NCBI GenBank assembly: GCA_946481965.1
Contig: CAMLPN010000002.1
Location: forward strand, 51,654-115,653
Reading direction: 5' to 3'
Origin: an uncultured Neisseriaceae bacterium
GTDB taxonomy: Bacteria > Pseudomonadota > Gammaproteobacteria > Burkholderiales > Neisseriaceae
Length of the DNA: 64,000 bases
This document shows positions 1-51,997 of the stretch, piece by piece. The position numbers were made by a program, and so were the translations under genes. The notes below the pieces were generated by a model. It saw only the letters and a list, made by a program, of their open reading frames with translations, was not told the DNA's origin and ran no database searches. How positions within the stretch are numbered: position 1 is the first letter of the stretch; each line of letters starts with the position of its first letter.

Positions 1-21
1 ATATATACAAATTTTATTATC

Positions 22-444
22 ATGGAAGGAAAAACAAATATGAAAAAAATCCTTTTTTTATTATTGCTTCCAATAACCTGTTTCGCACAAAATGAAATAA
101 GTCATTTGGGGGAAAGTGGTACTCGGAGAATTAGTTCAGTCATAAATCACGGAGCTGGTTCATATCGGATAAATAGAGATCTAAAACAGGATTCAGATCG
201 TTATGGTAGTTATTTAAATCTTAATGCTGATGGTACTTTCACTTCATGAAGCTCGATGTCATGTGGTAACGATTGTTTTTATTGTTCGCACAGTACCTTT
301 AAAAAAGTTGATGAAACATATATACGATTACAAATCAATTAATATTCATATTCACAATCGGAACCTTGCTCAAGTGGAGGAATATCAGATACAAAACCAC
401 GATATTTGTGTATTTTTGAAATTAAATCCTCTGAATGGAGCTGA
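22..444 (+). pseudogene. Remnant of a small secreted protein gene (signal-peptide N-terminus, interrupted by two in-frame stops)
   Basis: ORF 22-249 starts MEGKTNMKKILFLLLLPITCFAQ (signal peptide). The same frame continues after TGA (247-249) as SSMSCGNDCFYCSHSTFKKVDETYIRLQIN, TAA (340-342), then YSYSQSEPCSSGGISDTKPRYLCIFEIKSSEWS to TGA (442-444). Confidence 0.55.
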
Positions 445-447
445 GAG

Positions 448-680
448 GTTTAGCTTAATTCGGCATACATTTGTTTGAGTTTACGATTTTCAGCTTTCAG
501 CTGTTTTAACCACTTGATATCCGAAGATTGTAAACCGCCATATTTATCCCGCTATCAATAAAAGTTAGAGACTGCCATGCCATATTTAAAGTAAAGCTCT
601 TTGATAGGGATGCAGGCTTCAGTTTCCTTTAAAATAGATACAATTTGATGTTCTGAAAAATTTCCATATTGAAATTCTCC
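448..680 (-). mobile_element. Degenerate IS3-family transposase OrfA fragment
   Basis: Minus-strand translation reads ..FSEHQIVSILKETEACIPIKELYFKYGMAVSNFY**RDKYGGLQSSDIKWLKQLKAENRKLKQMYAELS, which resembles IS3 OrfA HTH plus leucine-zipper (xFYxWRxKYGGL..D.KRLKxLExENRKLKxxxA). Two adjacent in-frame stops, no OrfB nearby. Confidence 0.8.
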
Positions 681-785
681 TTAAAAATATCATAGAGAAT
701 TTTTTACTTTCTTGTTGTACAATTTTAGCAGATAGTTACATCGTGTATATATCAAAAAAATCACGAAATTTTTATAATCAAAGTC

Positions 786-3700
786 TTAAGTGAAAAAATA
801 AAAATCCTCTCCCACTAAAACATCATTTTCCAAATAATAAATCCCCGAAATATTCAGTCTCTTTTCTGTTGATTTTCTTGAATGATACATGGCAGTTTTT
901 TCTGACAGCACAGTCCAAATTACTCTGCAACCAGTCTTTTCTTGCAGTATTTCCAGATAATCCTTCCTAATTAATAAATTTGTTTCTTTATTGTTGCTAT
1001 AAAGAGATTCATCATATATAACCACCTCCCCATTATCGTTGACCCAAGAACCTGCAAATTGGTCGTTTTTAAGGTTTAAAGTTTCATGTAACAACTGAGT
1101 GGGAGCGGAAATATGATAAGACATATCATGATTTTTAATACCTTCTGAAATATGCCGTTCTGAGCATAAATAAACTTTTCCTATTATAGTTTTTTTTCTT
1201 ATGCCTCTATAAAATTCAATTTCTTGCCAGTCTGTACTACCATAATAATTACTCTCATAGATTTTTAATAATGGTGACCAGTAATATTCTAGATTAAAAA
1301 TATTGTTATAGCGCTGTACAGGCTCTGGCATTCGATTATCCATAAAATTTTTATTTTTTAGCTTTTTAACAACATTTTTAAAAACCTGCTCTTTCACAAG
1401 ATAGGCATTAACCGTGTACCACATAGATTGATATTCAGATAAAATATCTTCTTTCCCCAATTTTTTTTCTGGTCTGAACGCAATATGTCTATCTAATGAA
1501 AACCATTCATTGTTTTGATAAGAATTTAAAATTAATGACTTTGAGTTAATTAAATTAGCTGTAGATACAGCCCAGGATTCAAGATCGTTTCCCCAGTCAT
1601 TGTAAGTAGGTCTTTCTATTTCTCTAATATCAGACTTATTTGGCGAAATAAAACTTGGGTCAATATCCCTAAAAGATGGTTCAATAGAACCGTTATACCA
1701 TATTTGCTTTTTATCATCATTCCACCTAGTAGCAGGGTCTGTCATTTTTGTATGGTCAGATAATCTTGCAACTACTTCATACATAGCAAGCCATTGATAT
1801 TTTTTACCAATTCTTTCTATGGTATTGAGGAAACGAGAGTCAGAATACTGCTGTTGGTCAAATTTTCCATGTTTTTGAGCATCATAACCATATTTTTCAA
1901 AAATCAATTCAACAGCATAATTACTTAATTTATCAACATCAATATTTTTCCAATCATATAAATGTGATTGAAATGTATAACGTCCAAAATCACCATACCA
2001 ACCTACACCACGGCCGTATTCGGTTGTCATTGATGATAATATTGTATTTTGTTCCAAATAAAAATCAGGACTAGATTCATTTTCATATTCAATTTTATAT
2101 TTTTTATCAATTTCTTCATTAGTTGGTAAAATTACGGGTATTGGTGTACTTTTATATGGCGGTCGTATTCTTTCCAACGTCTTTAAGTCGCACTCTATTA
2201 GTTTATGGATATGAGAATATTCAATAATATTTCTAGCGAAATCCCTAACTAAAACATTAGGATAAACCTCTGATTGTAAGAATAAATCCTCAATTAAGAA
2301 GTAACACAATTTATCAATACCTTGATAATAAGATGATGAAAGCAATGCTCCATATGAAGCTGACAATACTCGTTCAAAAATATAAGGGTCATCAATGACG
2401 ATAAAGTGTTTAATTAGTTTCTCTGCAACATCAAGATTGTTTTGTAATAGTCTTGCCAATGCAATTGTAGCGTTATCTCTTAGTTGAATATAAGTGCTTG
2501 ATAAAATCCAACTAATTGCAATTGCTATTAGCAATCTACTGTTATGGGATAAACTCTCTGAAAATCCTTTTTGCTTTGCCCACTCTATTAAATCCATTAG
2601 CGCAGGGAAGGAATTATATTTATTTTCACTAATCACTGTAGTCCAATATGAATCTCTAATAGCTAAACTGCTTTTTGATAGGCAGCGATAAAGTTGATTT
2701 GCATTTAATGGGTGATTTTCTTTTCCCGCAACCTGATATTGCATATCAATAAATTTTTTTAATAAAGAATCATTTCTAAATATATTTTTATAAATAAATC
2801 TCTTACATTTAGCTAAACTAAAATTCTTATTATTTCTCCAATATAAGCTGTCAATAAACGCATCTCCTAGCAAATGATTATTAAATCTATCATTTTCACT
2901 AAAAATTTCAAAAAATTCAAAATTACTTCTTAAAGGTAACAATATAGATAAAAACCCTAGAACACCTTGAGATATAGTCTTACCACTATATGTTATTGTG
3001 TCATTGTCTATTTTTAAAAGATTTTTGAAATTATTAATATCTTCAATATTACTAATAATGACTTGAGCAGAAAAGTAATCATTAAATTTCTCATAAGAGA
3101 AAGTTAGAACCTCTTCCCCTCTAATCTGATAAGACATGAGTAAATTTTCTGAAATTAATTCCTGTAAAAATAAATTCTCATTGATATTTGTGAAATTTAG
3201 AGAAGCTAAAACATTTAATGCCTCTTCATATTTAATACTAGAAGAATTTGTATGAAAAATAGTTTCAGCAATTTTTAGTAGATATTTCTCAACATACTTT
3301 AATGATTTTCTATATTCAAATTTTTCTGAAACTTTTTCATTAATAACATCAATATATTTTTTAAAAATTTTATCAATATCAATGTCATCATATATTGAGC
3401 TAGATGTACTTTTTCTATATTCGCAATAAATTTTAAGAAATAATGGGTTTTTAAATTCATCTAACATCAGTGGTTCAGTTGGAAATGCTAATTGATAGTA
3501 GTCAAAAAAAGATTGAATAGCTTGATAAATATTGGTCTCAAAACCTTTATGCATTACTACATTAAGATAATTTTCGGCTATATCCGAATTTAAATTGGTT
3601 AAGATATTATCTTTATATTCACTTCTAATTGATAAAATAAGTGCTACCCACGGATATTTTTTAAACTTTTCAATAAAACCTGCTAATGTATCTTTCCACA

Positions 3701-4934
3701 ACTTTTGACCTTGTCCTTCATTTAAAGCATCAATAATAACAGGAACTCGTTCTTTCTGTATCTGTCCAATTGTATTTAATGCACCTAAGAATTCAGCTTC
3801 ATTACACTTCAATCTTAATTCATCTTGCAAAATTTGAGTCCAAGGATTGATCTGTGTCGTTAATCTTTGACCCAATATAAAAATACAAGGCTTATGTTGT
3901 AAAATTAAATGATTGGCAAAATCTCCCAATAAATGCGACTTACCTATACCGGCATCTCCATAAATAACCAAATATGGATAATCAATCAGATTGAATTGAG
4001 TACTTTTTAATTTATTGGATAGCTTTTCTAATTGATATATTTCAGAGCTAAACTGTTCCATTTCAATTTGGTTAGTTTGGTTAGTATTTAATAATTCAAT
4101 AAATTTATTTAAATTAGTGAAAATATGATTTCTTATTTCTTTTGGATTGACACAATCAGATATATACTTCCAATATTGATGAACATATTGAATTAAATCA
4201 TTAATAACCTCTTCCAACCTTACATTATTTTTAGTAAATTTTCCTTTAAAATTTTCCAATAACTTAAATAATGCATTAATTTCATTAAAAACATTATTTC
4301 TGGATAATTCGTTATAAATTATTGAGTTGAATAAAATAGCAATATCATCTATTTTTACATTGAATTCTTTACTGTATCTAGCACCCAAATTTTTTATTGA
4401 ACCATTGACGTGCTCTTGAAACCACATTTCAGAAAAGAATTCTTTATCAAACCAGTATTTAAGAATGCCGCTATTTTCTGGTTTCATTAATTTGTTGTTT
4501 AACTCAAAAGCTCCCCAGTATTCAATATCAATATTTATTTCTTGATTTAGAGCGAAATTTTTGCATTCATCAACAAATTCATTCCATCTATCTTGAAGAT
4601 ATCTTTTACCTTTAATTCTAGGATCTTGTTTGTCAATAGGACAGCAGACAATATATTTAATTAATCTAGGATGTGTTTTTAAAGCAGTTTGAAATGATTC
4701 TTTTATTTGTTTAAATTGCGGGTCTTGAATATCAAAGAAATATTTTGCCTGCCAACCAATTTCGTCACCATTCTCTAATACTAAATAGGCTTCAACACCA
4801 CCATCAGGTGCATCTATCCGTGTAAAATATCCTTTTTTTCTATTTTCACTAGATGCTAATTGACAAACTATCTCCTCAAAAGCTGTACGTTGAGACTGTT
4901 GGTAACTTTTTATTTGATGCCAGTTAATATCCAC
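786..4934 (-). CDS. Avs-like STAND/NACHT NTPase with N-terminal PD-(D/E)xK nuclease-like domain; candidate anti-phage protein
   Basis: 1382 aa, GTG start. N-terminal D-x(n)-E..GWQAKYFF motif, Walker A GDAGIGKSHL, Walker B-like RVPVIIDALNEG, LILSIRSEY; long C-terminal region of unclear type. Confidence 0.75.
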   Translation of the reverse strand: MDINWHQIKSYQQSQRTAFEEIVCQLASSENRKKGYFTRIDAPDGGVEAYLVLENGDEIGWQAKYFFDIQDPQFKQIKESFQTALKTHPRLIKYIVCCPIDKQDPRIKGKRYLQDRWNEFVDECKNFALNQEINIDIEYWGAFELNNKLMKPENSGILKYWFDKEFFSEMWFQEHVNGSIKNLGARYSKEFNVKIDDIAILFNSIIYNELSRNNVFNEINALFKLLENFKGKFTKNNVRLEEVINDLIQYVHQYWKYISDCVNPKEIRNHIFTNLNKFIELLNTNQTNQIEMEQFSSEIYQLEKLSNKLKSTQFNLIDYPYLVIYGDAGIGKSHLLGDFANHLILQHKPCIFILGQRLTTQINPWTQILQDELRLKCNEAEFLGALNTIGQIQKERVPVIIDALNEGQGQKLWKDTLAGFIEKFKKYPWVALILSIRSEYKDNILTNLNSDIAENYLNVVMHKGFETNIYQAIQSFFDYYQLAFPTEPLMLDEFKNPLFLKIYCEYRKSTSSSIYDDIDIDKIFKKYIDVINEKVSEKFEYRKSLKYVEKYLLKIAETIFHTNSSSIKYEEALNVLASLNFTNINENLFLQELISENLLMSYQIRGEEVLTFSYEKFNDYFSAQVIISNIEDINNFKNLLKIDNDTITYSGKTISQGVLGFLSILLPLRSNFEFFEIFSENDRFNNHLLGDAFIDSLYWRNNKNFSLAKCKRFIYKNIFRNDSLLKKFIDMQYQVAGKENHPLNANQLYRCLSKSSLAIRDSYWTTVISENKYNSFPALMDLIEWAKQKGFSESLSHNSRLLIAIAISWILSSTYIQLRDNATIALARLLQNNLDVAEKLIKHFIVIDDPYIFERVLSASYGALLSSSYYQGIDKLCYFLIEDLFLQSEVYPNVLVRDFARNIIEYSHIHKLIECDLKTLERIRPPYKSTPIPVILPTNEEIDKKYKIEYENESSPDFYLEQNTILSSMTTEYGRGVGWYGDFGRYTFQSHLYDWKNIDVDKLSNYAVELIFEKYGYDAQKHGKFDQQQYSDSRFLNTIERIGKKYQWLAMYEVVARLSDHTKMTDPATRWNDDKKQIWYNGSIEPSFRDIDPSFISPNKSDIREIERPTYNDWGNDLESWAVSTANLINSKSLILNSYQNNEWFSLDRHIAFRPEKKLGKEDILSEYQSMWYTVNAYLVKEQVFKNVVKKLKNKNFMDNRMPEPVQRYNNIFNLEYYWSPLLKIYESNYYGSTDWQEIEFYRGIRKKTIIGKVYLCSERHISEGIKNHDMSYHISAPTQLLHETLNLKNDQFAGSWVNDNGEVVIYDESLYSNNKETNLLIRKDYLEILQEKTGCRVIWTVLSEKTAMYHSRKSTEKRLNISGIYYLENDVLVGEDFYFFT

Positions 4935-5881
4935 TATAAAACCTGTTTAAATTGAAGATTTAAATTGATTTTGGGGCTGTTACAGACTATTCAACTCCAA
5001 TATTTTATTATTTCTCAATCTGGCTAAAAGCTTTTAAGTTCTTATCCTATCCTTCTCCTTTACCACCAAATGCCTCATTAATGCTACGCTTTCATACTCG
5101 TTATGGAGCCTGCTGCGCTCCTATAATATCGCTATTGCTTTATCAACAAAGTCTTTTCAGTACACATCAGGTAAATGCCATTATATATTCATCAATAGAA
5201 CCACTAGATTATAAAGTCCCCCGTCTCTATCGCTTAGCTTACGCTTGCAGATTGATAATCAATTACAGAGGGATTGGCACTCATGAAGTACACAGCCTTT
5301 ATGGGGAATTTTTAATATGCCCTTAATGTGAGGTCTAAATAAGACATAAGTCATGATTTGCACCATATCCAAAATTGTAACGGCAATCGATTTGTCCAAA
5401 TCGCTGTTTACGCTGAACATGGTTCCAATATAGCGGATACGTTGGTACAGCGTACATTCGTCCATAAAAAGACGTGGTAGTCTAGTGCGGTTATATGCTG
5501 TCGCCAATCATAGGTATCAACCATAAGATAAATTAAATGCCATAAGAGCTGCGTTCGTTGTCAATAGCGGTTTGTCACAAGGCTTGGTAGTTAATATTTT
5601 GTCTTCTCATGGTGTTCAGAAAGCAATATAAACTATTGAAGTAGTCGAAATTCTTGATGAGCCAAAAACGTAGCGCAGTATACGTTTGATTTATCCATCC
5701 AACGAATTTCTTCACAATTGCAAATGATCGAAATCTGCAAAATTTTTGCGGATTTCGACCGCTGTTCTTTAAAACTACGCTAATTCAGGATCTGTCGGAA
5801 TAATCCGAGTTGGGTTGATTTAGCCGTATACGTATACGTAATAGTAGTGCGTTTAGATATGGGCAGTATCAATTGCTGTCT

Positions 5882-6379
5882 TCACTTAGGTAAAGGTATA
5901 AGTTGATATTTACTTTTACCCGTTAAAAGTTGGTTAAATTTATCTAAAAACTCTGCTACATCTTTATTTTTACGCTCTGGAATGTCCAAATTAAAACTCT
6001 GACAGTTGATATAATGAGAATTAGTACAAAAACGAATTTTATACCCCGATCGATCAAACTCTGACACATGATACCGATTGTCTTCCGTTAAAAATATTTT
6101 TGGGATTGAATCAAAAAAATCATTAATACCAGTGTACATACTAATTGCTTCAACGTCTTCGCACCGAGTAACATTATTTTTTTTAGCACAAATTTTCTTG
6201 TATTTAGTAATATCTTTAGGTGTAATGCTAAAAAGTAATATTGAGTTAGGCTCTTCAGGTATTGATTGATAGATATTAAATTCAGCATAATCAGGATGGA
6301 GATAGATCATTTTTGCATCAGCAATAAAACCTATATTTAAAAGAAAAAATAACCAACTCCAAAAAAATTTTATTTTCAT
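5882..6379 (-). CDS. Small secreted hypothetical protein, 165 aa
   Basis: ORF with N-terminal hydrophobic signal sequence MKIKFFWSWLFFLLNIGFIADA and four Cys in the predicted mature part. A decayed partial copy lies about 1.3 kb away. Confidence 0.6.
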   Translation of the reverse strand: MKIKFFWSWLFFLLNIGFIADAKMIYLHPDYAEFNIYQSIPEEPNSILLFSITPKDITKYKKICAKKNNVTRCEDVEAISMYTGINDFFDSIPKIFLTEDNRYHVSEFDRSGYKIRFCTNSHYINCQSFNLDIPERKNKDVAEFLDKFNQLLTGKSKYQLIPLPK

Positions 6380-7193
6380 TATCGCTCCTTAATCTATTAA
6401 TTCAATTTCAGGATTTTGTAGCTTATAGTCGCTTATGTCTCCATCATACATTCGCTAATTTATTTTATCCAGAAATATATTTATTTTACATCATAATAGC
6501 TCTTACCAGCATAAGTATTCAATATGATATTATATTGGGCATCAGCAAAACAACTTTCTATTTTATATGCTGTAAAATTATTATGTTATCTGGGATCAAC
6601 AAAATCTAAGCCGGATAAAAATAGAGTTGTGGAGTGTTAATGAAGTTGTATTTATCTTGGTACTGAAATTTTCACTTTGTGCCCAACAATGAAATTTGCC
6701 ATGCTTTAAAGAGCAGCTTTTGACAGGATATCTTGTTACCAAAACAGCAGTCATTGTATAAAACAGCATTGTCAGAAAAAATCAATTAATTCATATACTT
6801 TATGACAACGAGCATTAACGAAACAAATTTTTAATTTTTGCACTACTCGTTTAAGGTAGAGGAATATAGCTTGATTTTCTTAAATAGGTTTCTGGTACAA
6901 ATTTAAAAATATCATCAGGATCCTAGATATGGTTCTTAAGGACGATCCAAAACCAATTTATACTAAAGTCAGTACAAATTGTGTGTGTAAGAATGATTGA
7001 GTTGGCAGATATTTTAATCAATGATGAGCGTTCGGATAAAACTTAATGACCATATTTACGATCCTCAATAGTGATGAAATATTCTGATGACTTGGTATTT
7101 AAGCCTTTGTCGTAAAGCTCAATAATAGTCATATCAACAACAGTAAAATAGGTTTTAATGTTTATGTTATTTGCTTTATTTTTCCATTATTAA

Positions 7194-7335
7194 AGGTTTA
7201 AATTGATATTTACTTTTACCTGTTAAAAGTTGGTTAAATTTATCTAAAAACTCTGCTACATCTTTAATCTTTACGATCTGGAATGTTCGGATCAAACCAA
7301 TAATAATTGTTAAGAGAATTAGCACCATAACGACC
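7194..7335 (-). pseudogene. Decayed partial duplicate of the 3' end of the 5882-6379 gene
   Basis: Nucleotide match to about 5892-6032 (TTGATATTTACTTTTACCYGTTAAAAGTTGGTTAAATTTATCTAAAAACTCTGCTACATCTTTA...). Encodes RYGANSLNNYYWFDPNIPDRKD, comparable to RFCTNSHYINCQSFNLDIPERKN. A 1-nt length difference shifts the frame. Confidence 0.8.
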
Positions 7336-7956
7336 TATATAGTCCTAAACATTATGCATTCTTTATGAAATTTGCATATAATTAAAACAATCGATGATTA
7401 AAAATAGATTTTAAAATAAAGTATTTTTATATTAGATTAAATGGTCTACTGAGTCCCATTGATGCTGTTTTTTTTAACCAAACAATTAAATTTCCATTTT
7501 TACCACTAGACCATATTATTTCTCTGATCGTATTGTCTCTGCTATTAATTTCTTTTTCTGTAAATATATTTTAGACTAATTCTGAATTCAGTAATGAAGT
7601 CATCTGTTTTCTCAATAAACATTTATATCAGTAATGCTATTCCAGAAAACTGGATGAATTCAATAAAACCATATGAAATAATTAAATATTCAGATTAAAT
7701 ATATCTTTGAAAAATAGAGATTTTTAAAATATGAATGTCGTCTATTAAAGCTGCCTAAAAACTCAGTCTATTGATAAATCAGGCTGTGGTTTGTTTGGTT
7801 AATCTGAGTAATGAGATTCTAAGCTAATAATGAGAAATCAAAAAAAATTGGTTAATATCATGTCAGATCAAATGGGCTTATTATTCTTTAAAATAGTCGT
7901 TTTAAACGTTGCTATTTTATACCGGTCTGCTAAAATAACACATATGGAACTGCGCA

Positions 7957-7993
7957 AGCCGCCAAACACTGGTCGGCTTGCTTTTTGTTTTAA
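7957..7993 (+). terminator. Rho-independent-type terminator upstream of greA (no intact + strand gene before it)
   Basis: GCAAGCCG-ccaaacactggt-CGGCTTGC followed by TTTTTGTTTT; about 50 nt before the greA ATG. Confidence 0.75.
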
Positions 7994-8040
7994 TGCGAAT
8001 ACCGTTGTTGCACTTAACTGCGGTATCTTGGAGAAATACG

Positions 8041-8517
8041 ATGCAAAAAATTCCGTTGACCGTAATTGGTGCCGATTTGCTAAAACAGGAGCTGCAACAA
8101 CTCAAAAGCGTGGCTCGTCCTGCTGTGATTGAAGCAATTGCTGAAGCACGTTCGCATGGCGATCTGTCGGAAAATGCAGAATATGAAGCAGCAAAAGAAA
8201 AACAGGGCTTTATTGAGGGTCGTATTGCTGAAATTGAGCATAAACTTTCACTGGCACACATTATTGACCCAAAAGAAACTAATGCTGATGGTAAGGTAGT
8301 TTTTGGGGCTACTGTGAAAATGCAAGATCTGGAGACAGAAGAAGTGGTTAGTTACCAGATTGTTGGTGAAGATGAAGCGGATATCAAACAAGCAAAAATC
8401 TTTGTTGGTTCGCCCATTGCACGGGCATTGATTGGTAAAGAAGAAGGTGATGTAGCGGAAGTGCAAGCACCGGGTGGGGTGCGCGAATATGAAATTCTTG
8501 AAGTATTTTATATTTAA
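8041..8517 (+). CDS. greA: Transcription elongation factor GreA
   Basis: 158 aa from ATG 8041, [22 protein letters not shown]...[27 protein letters not shown]; typical GreA. Confidence 0.95.
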
Positions 8518-8578
8518 ACTGTCTGCTTATAAAAAATGTTTACTGTTTTGCACTAATTTTGTCGGATGAAAATACGCA

Positions 8579-8607
8579 AGCGATTCATAAATGAATCGCT
8601 TTTGTTT
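8579..8607. terminator. Hairpin terminator between convergent greA and yhbY
   Basis: AGCGATTCAT-aa-ATGAATCGCT followed by TTTGTTTATT. Confidence 0.7.
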
Positions 8608-8896
8608 ATTCTGCTGATTCTGCTTTGGGGCGGAATAATACCAGTTGTTTACCAATGTGCTGAATTAATTCGGCGTCTGTCGCTTTACATAATTCTTCCG
8701 CGATTGCAATGCGCGCAGCGCGATCGTCACCAGCTACTTGCACTTTAATCAGTTCATGAGCATCAAGATTACGGTTGGTTTCGGTGATGACTTCGGTAGT
8801 CAGTCCGTGCTGACCAATCAGTACTACTGCATGTAATTGATGGGCACGTGCTTTTAATGCCTTTTTTTCTTTACTGTTTAATTTATTTGTTGCCAT
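8606..8896 (-). CDS. yhbY: YhbY family RNA-binding protein
   Basis: 96 aa, LNSKEKKALKARAHQLHAVVLIGQHGLTTEVI...ELIKVQVAGDDRAARIAIAEELCKATDAELIQHIGKQLVLFRP; CRM domain. Confidence 0.92.
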   Translation of the reverse strand: MATNKLNSKEKKALKARAHQLHAVVLIGQHGLTTEVITETNRNLDAHELIKVQVAGDDRAARIAIAEELCKATDAELIQHIGKQLVLFRPKAESAE

Positions 8897-9177
8897 TTTA
8901 CTTTCCGGATTGATTATGATCTGATTAATTGTTATTCAGATTAGATTCGTAGGTAAACTATTTTAAATGAGACAGATATTTTTTTATAGAGAGTCTATTT
9001 ATCTTTCTTGAAAAGAAAAATTTAAAATCAGTATGGTTAATAATGTATTGTGTTATTTTAATTAAAATAGTGAATTATAAAATAATTAAGTACATTTCAT
9101 TTGTGTGATATTTGTTTATTGTTGATAATCATTTTAGTAAGTGAAATTTAGTCACTTTTCTATAAGTTATAATAATT

Positions 9178-51244: not shown

Positions 51245-51997
51245 ATGGATGACTTCAATATTGGCTTTGCAGCAAGAATGCAAGAAGTAGTAGATATTCT
51301 TGGAAGTGTTTCTGAATTGTCTCGCAGGGTACAGGTTGCCTATCCTACAGCTGCTAAATGGGTAAAAGAAGGTGCAGAACCCAGTACTACTAATTTGATT
51401 AAGATTGCTGACGTTGCAAAAGTTAATTTATTGTGGTTAGCAACGGGTAAAGGCCCCAAATCTGATCAGGATGCTTTGAATACCACTATAGAATTACATG
51501 CCGCTCACTCAGAACGCAGATCTAATTTGCGTGAGCCTATACCCGTTTACGGCGGTAAATTAGCCGCAGTTAATGTGAATGCCTTTACTTTTATTCCGAT
51601 GTATTCAATTGAAGAGGATGAAGTAAGCAAACTGGCCGGAGATGATAAACTAGCATGCACGATGGCTTTTAATCGTTGTTGGCTGGAAAATAATTTGAAT
51701 GCGGAAGCATTGAAACTGAGTACACTGATTGTAAAAGATGACAGTATGACTGGTGTGTTAAATGATGGTGATCATGTTTTGATCAATCACGGCAAAAAAA
51801 CTGGCGGTGATGGTTTATATGTTTTGCGTATGGGAAATAATCTTCTTATTAAACGGACACAGTTATTACCAAATAATAAACTATTGATTACTTCAGCCAA
51901 TGCGGCTTATGAATCATTCACTATTGATCTTGATGCCAATAAAAATAATGAAATTGAAATTATTGGCAAAGTTGAATGGTTTGGTCGTAAGATTTGA
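51245..51997 (+). CDS. Phage-repressor-like regulator: HTH plus S24/LexA-like peptidase domain
   Basis: 250 aa; N-terminal HTH SELSRRVQVAYPTAAKWVKEGAEPSTTNLIKIA, C-terminal VKDDSMTGVLNDGDHVLIN..GDGLYVLRMGNNLLIKRTQ (candidate Ser/Lys dyad). Confidence 0.85.
   Translation: MDDFNIGFAARMQEVVDILGSVSELSRRVQVAYPTAAKWVKEGAEPSTTNLIKIADVAKVNLLWLATGKGPKSDQDALNTTIELHAAHSERRSNLREPIPVYGGKLAAVNVNAFTFIPMYSIEEDEVSKLAGDDKLACTMAFNRCWLENNLNAEALKLSTLIVKDDSMTGVLNDGDHVLINHGKKTGGDGLYVLRMGNNLLIKRTQLLPNNKLLITSANAAYESFTIDLDANKNNEIEIIGKVEWFGRKI

Follow-up and report, generated by a model that had tools for sequence, protein, structure and literature searches.

Organization of the avs2 Locus

The window, i.e., the whole 64,000-nucleotide stretch of DNA that was analyzed, carries at positions 786–4934 of the minus strand a gene that we designate avs2. 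As the initial annotation had stated, it starts with GTG and encodes 1382 aa; its frame has no internal stop. The draft genome of the host (2.18 Mb) contains the gene only once. Judged by gene content, this host is plausibly a Snodgrassella-like member of the Neisseriaceae. The following features were distinguished at the locus:

786–4934, minus strand: avs2 gene (1382 aa, GTG start), matching PADLOC Avs2 model PDLC02162 over aa 2–1370
4425–4934, minus strand: predicted PD-(D/E)xK effector nuclease of the Avs4 type, aa 1–170 (E20, D44, E48, Q62-A-K64), based on the AF2 model, Foldseek, profile, and conservation
4005–4424, minus strand: weakly conserved linker/helical region, aa 171–310, with 13–21% identity to the homologs compared
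3015–4004, minus strand: STAND NTPase, aa 311–640, based on sub-threshold nSTAND6, AAA_16, and NACHT matches and on motif conservation
789–3014, minus strand: C-terminal sensor, aa 641–1382, based on the 9o4e profile match, AF2, and Foldseek
1935–2162, minus strand: variable sensor segment in its compact form, aa 925–1000 (76 aa versus 157–211 aa in extended homologs)
436–740, minus strand: decayed, interrupted remnant of an IS3-type OrfA directly downstream of avs2 (Pfam HTH_Tnp_1, E = 2.7e-8)

The avs2 gene is located alone in an AT-rich insert of approximately 8 kb that is bounded by greA (8041–8514) and by ssb, the latter immediately beyond the left edge of the window (L004). The GC content is 0.26–0.31 over avs2 versus approximately 0.40 in the housekeeping DNA that flanks it. 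Nine congeners carry ssb and greA on the same contig; their ssb–greA interval contained 0.35–3.7 kb of other DNA and avs2 in no case, and in G079 it was nearly empty (approximately 0.35 kb). The IS3-type OrfA remnant had 21 matches in its own genome, 20–40 in several congeners, and none in others. In addition, the genes flanking avs2 differ in its two closest relatives. The lone position of the gene, the variable interval, the low GC content, the IS remnant, and the differing flanks together fit horizontal transfer of a single gene into a variable site, and the earlier impression of a defense-gene insertion site in a decayed, IS-marked region is supported.

According to sequence reading, the cargo of the interval varies among the congeners (L020, L022–L027, L029, L032), with an MFS transporter in G075 and only remnants of one in G069, a carbon-nitrogen hydrolase-like protein in G071, or small lipoprotein-like orphans. 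Within the window, the stretch 4990–5900 is decayed, with many stops in all frames, and was found nowhere else among 14 genomes of the genus. Further along, positions 5882–6379 (minus strand) encode an orphan of 165 aa that likely has a signal peptide, and a partial, degraded second copy of it lies approximately 1300 bases away (7174–7341). This orphan was considered as a partner gene and rejected: it matched no family above threshold, and the two closest relatives showed no link between it and Avs2. At gathering thresholds Rfam matched nothing in the window, and positions 1–9000 gave no RNA element at E values up to 0.5 either.

Assignment to the Avs2 Family

The protein matched the curated PADLOC Avs2 model PDLC02162 over practically its full length (aa 2–1370) with 1273.6 bits and E = 0, a value against a full-length family model that is not attributable to chance. 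All six strong PADLOC matches were to Avs2 models. In the single-sequence PDB search, the sole solved relative was 9o4e, titled AVAST type 2 anti-phage system protein Avs2 (E = 9e-150, with collinear stretches at aa 143–950 and 999–1378), and identity to this solved type was only about 30%. The protein also has intact Walker A and B motifs of the STAND NTPase, a C-terminal sensor homologous to that of 9o4e, and the character of a single-gene system, without a recognizable adjacent partner gene. It therefore belongs to an already known family, AVAST type 2 (Avs2).

The NCBIfam Avs2 equivalog NF041813 gave 863 bits, with the best stretch at aa 180–1002, which is below the cut-off of 1000 bits set by NCBI. 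This result weakens only the equivalence to the type modeled by NCBI, since the protein still belongs to the wider PADLOC Avs2 set. Taken together, the PADLOC, NCBIfam, and 9o4e matches identify the protein as a divergent Avs2 of a type already covered by PADLOC. Members of the PDLC02162 group from Moraxella plasmids, from G053 of the same host family, and from G270 have the same effector, STAND domain, and compact sensor as the window protein along their entire length; however, they score 1720–1896 bits against 1274 bits for the window protein, which falls into its own subgroup with the Bisgaardia and Psychrobacter proteins. The predicted N-terminal nuclease is of the Avs4 type and matches the 8dgf N-terminus by profile and fold; however, the STAND/sensor core is not that of Avs4, as all PADLOC Avs matches were to Avs2 and the sensor profile matched only the 9o4e Avs2. 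Thus, the single-gene PD-(D/E)xK–STAND defense protein of Avs-like type proposed by the initial annotation can be specified as an Avs2 with an Avs4-type nuclease.

Effector Nuclease and STAND NTPase

The AF2 model of the N-terminal 185 aa had a mean pLDDT of 92.9. Its top Foldseek match in the PDB was the portal-bound Avs4 (8dgf; E = 1.3e-5, TMq 0.63), followed by weaker matches to Cap4 and to restriction-type nucleases, including EcoO109I. A PDB search with the single effector sequence returned nothing significant; this blank was resolved by a profile of 39 members, which matched the N-terminus of 8dgf Avs4 with E = 3.9e-6. Pfam recognized no family in the effector alone or in the 39 members. 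Each of the 38 relatives had E20, Q62, and K64, and nearly every one also had D44 and E48 (36–38 of 38 overall), across very divergent hosts that include archaea. In a 10-protein alignment, D44 and Q62-A63-K64 were invariant and E48 nearly so. The predicted fold and these conserved residues place the N-terminal domain in the PD-(D/E)xK superfamily as a predicted nuclease domain, which is of the Avs4 type by profile. The N-terminal domains of 9o4e and its Vibrio relative are unrelated to this effector.

Conservation of the whole protein reaches its minimum at aa 201–320. The NTPase that follows contains Walker A at aa 326–333 (G326-DAGIGKS), a Walker B-like motif at aa 399–407 (IIDALNEG, with D402, N405, and E406), R437 within LILSIRSEY, and NPLFL at aa 496–500. 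Residues G326, A328, G329, G331, K332, D402, N405, E406, and R437 were invariant in the 10-protein alignment. All motifs named in the initial annotation (D..E-x-GWQAK, Walker A, VPVIIDALNEG, and LILSIRSEY) were found in the protein and are conserved in that alignment.

Compact C-Terminal Sensor

The profile of the sensor (aa 641–1382) matched aa 661–1481 of 9o4e with E = 1.9e-277. The AF2 model of this region (pLDDT 90.0) consists of alpha-helical repeats followed by a beta-rich end. The top Foldseek match was the Avs3–terminase complex 8dgc (E = 2.5e-7); however, the global TM was low (0.39), identity was 14%, and Avs3 gave no sequence-profile match to the sensor. Avs4 was absent from the profile matches and from the fold matches listed, and 9o4e was also absent among the latter.

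The segment at aa 925–1000 has a bimodal length among the relatives, approximately 47–78 aa or approximately 157–211 aa. The window protein belongs to the compact form: its segment measures 76 aa, compared with about 160 in proteins of the 9o4e type, and lacks their extension of approximately 85–100 aa. The distribution of compact and extended forms requires nine changes on the tree, and the effector type of the window protein co-occurs equally with both (22 compact, 22 extended). The initial annotation had regarded the C-terminal half as uncharacterized and possibly a new sensor. This idea was not retained, since homology to the sensor of the solved Avs2 extends over the whole length; the region is the compact form of the Avs2 sensor.

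Relatives and Effector Exchange

Homologs were present in two of the 83 genomes of the host family, including its own; the one other, among 82 genomes, had 36% identity. Homologs on Moraxella plasmids showed 32–33% identity over 97–99% of the length. A single-protein scan of genome contigs found no relatives, and an alignment-based scan found 67 loci in many bacterial phyla and some archaea. Homologs were also found on predicted viral contigs.

The closest relative is the protein of Bisgaardia hudsonensis, with 53% identity over aa 3–1380 and 65% in the N-terminal domain; on the tree it is the sister of the window protein (SH-aLRT 97). The second closest, that of Psychrobacter frigidicola (L095), belongs to the same clade, and its core is 46% identical; however, the similarity begins only at aa 167, and the effector is HNH_2 where the window protein has PD-(D/E)xK. 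Further replacements of the nuclease include trypsin-like domains in Bacteroidota. The presence of the nuclease on the core tree required 12 changes, of which at least 10 were forced by supported branches. Effector swaps on the Avs2 tree are thus repeated. Such exchange has already been recognized: PMC12799240 describes how interchangeable genes from a small pool are fused to the core genes of immune systems, among them Avs.

The window protein adds a well-resolved member to an established family of bacterial NLR-like receptors; taken alone, it is an ordinary additional Avs2 and leaves existing knowledge unchanged. Within Avs2, the effector (PD-(D/E)xK, HNH, trypsin-like, or 9o4e type) and the sensor segment vary independently, and natural chimeras, such as the window protein, L073, and L095, could show which part decides the trigger and which the output. 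On one contig (G128, C100), two Avs2 homologs (L054 and L071) lie approximately 9 kb apart.

Proposed Mechanism and Alternative Explanations

PMC12724215, citing Gao et al., attributes recognition of the large terminase to Avs1–3 and recognition of the portal to Avs4. The same paper reports ATP-dependent trimerization of an E. coli Avs2, which activates the N-terminal effector, and a Klebsiella Avs2 appears there to bind Ksap1 in addition to terminase. The effectors of Avs1–4 are described as nucleases, with both phage and host DNA being cleaved (PMC12931631). By analogy with these systems, the C-terminal sensor would most likely recognize the large terminase subunit of a phage. Binding would lead to NTP-dependent oligomerization of the STAND NTPase domain, which would bring the N-terminal Avs4-type PD-(D/E)xK domains together; the assembled nuclease domains would then cut DNA, and the infected cell would die and be stopped from making phage. 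We consider it quite probable that avs2 encodes an intact receptor working along these lines. Sensing of the large terminase is the least certain step and seems only reasonably likely.

The STAND NTPase and sensor are collinear with those of 9o4e from approximately aa 143 to the C-terminus. However, with only about 30% identity and a different N-terminal effector in the solved Avs2, the output need not equal that of the latter. The ligand could also differ from that of the 9o4e type, because the window sensor is without the extension of 9o4e-type proteins. The Avs3 fold match, with its low global TM, also counts against the reading as a terminase-sensing Avs2.

The main alternative retains the same architecture with a different trigger: in place of the large terminase, the compact sensor would recognize the portal, a protein like Ksap1, or some further protein of the phage. 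It is suggested by the portal recognition of Avs4 and the Ksap1 binding reported for the Klebsiella Avs2-family protein in PMC12724215, as well as by the compact sensor and the low identity to the solved type. However, the sensor is homologous to Avs2 over its whole length, and its best solved-fold match is the terminase-bound Avs3 rather than the portal-bound Avs4; we regard this alternative as possible but the less likely one. In a narrower version, the phage ligand of the compact-sensor subgroup (window, Bisgaardia, and Psychrobacter proteins) would be a protein distinct from the large terminase, and gain and loss of the segment at aa 925–1000 would reflect repeated ligand changes within Avs2; this version is more speculative still and rather unlikely.

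Returning to the intact terminase-sensing receptor, two further objections concern its functionality. The N-terminal domain might be no active nuclease but a remnant of the PD-(D/E)xK fold with a structural or DNA-binding role, as it carries the Q-x-K variant of the motif and Pfam recognizes no family in any of the 39 members; this is very improbable given the conservation of its signature residues in hosts as divergent as archaea and the closest fold matches, the Avs4 nuclease domain and then Cap4. It is equally improbable that avs2 is a functionless relic decaying like its surroundings (the IS3-type remnant and the degraded duplicate of the orphan gene) and rare in the host family, since a frame of 1382 codons remains free of stops in AT-rich DNA and all signature residues of effector and NTPase are kept.

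With regard to a host terminase as a self-trigger, PF03237, the one family searched, had no match in the draft genome. Elsewhere in the window, the plus strand at 51245–51997 encodes an S24 peptidase with a phage CI-type HTH, i.e., a prophage-type repressor.
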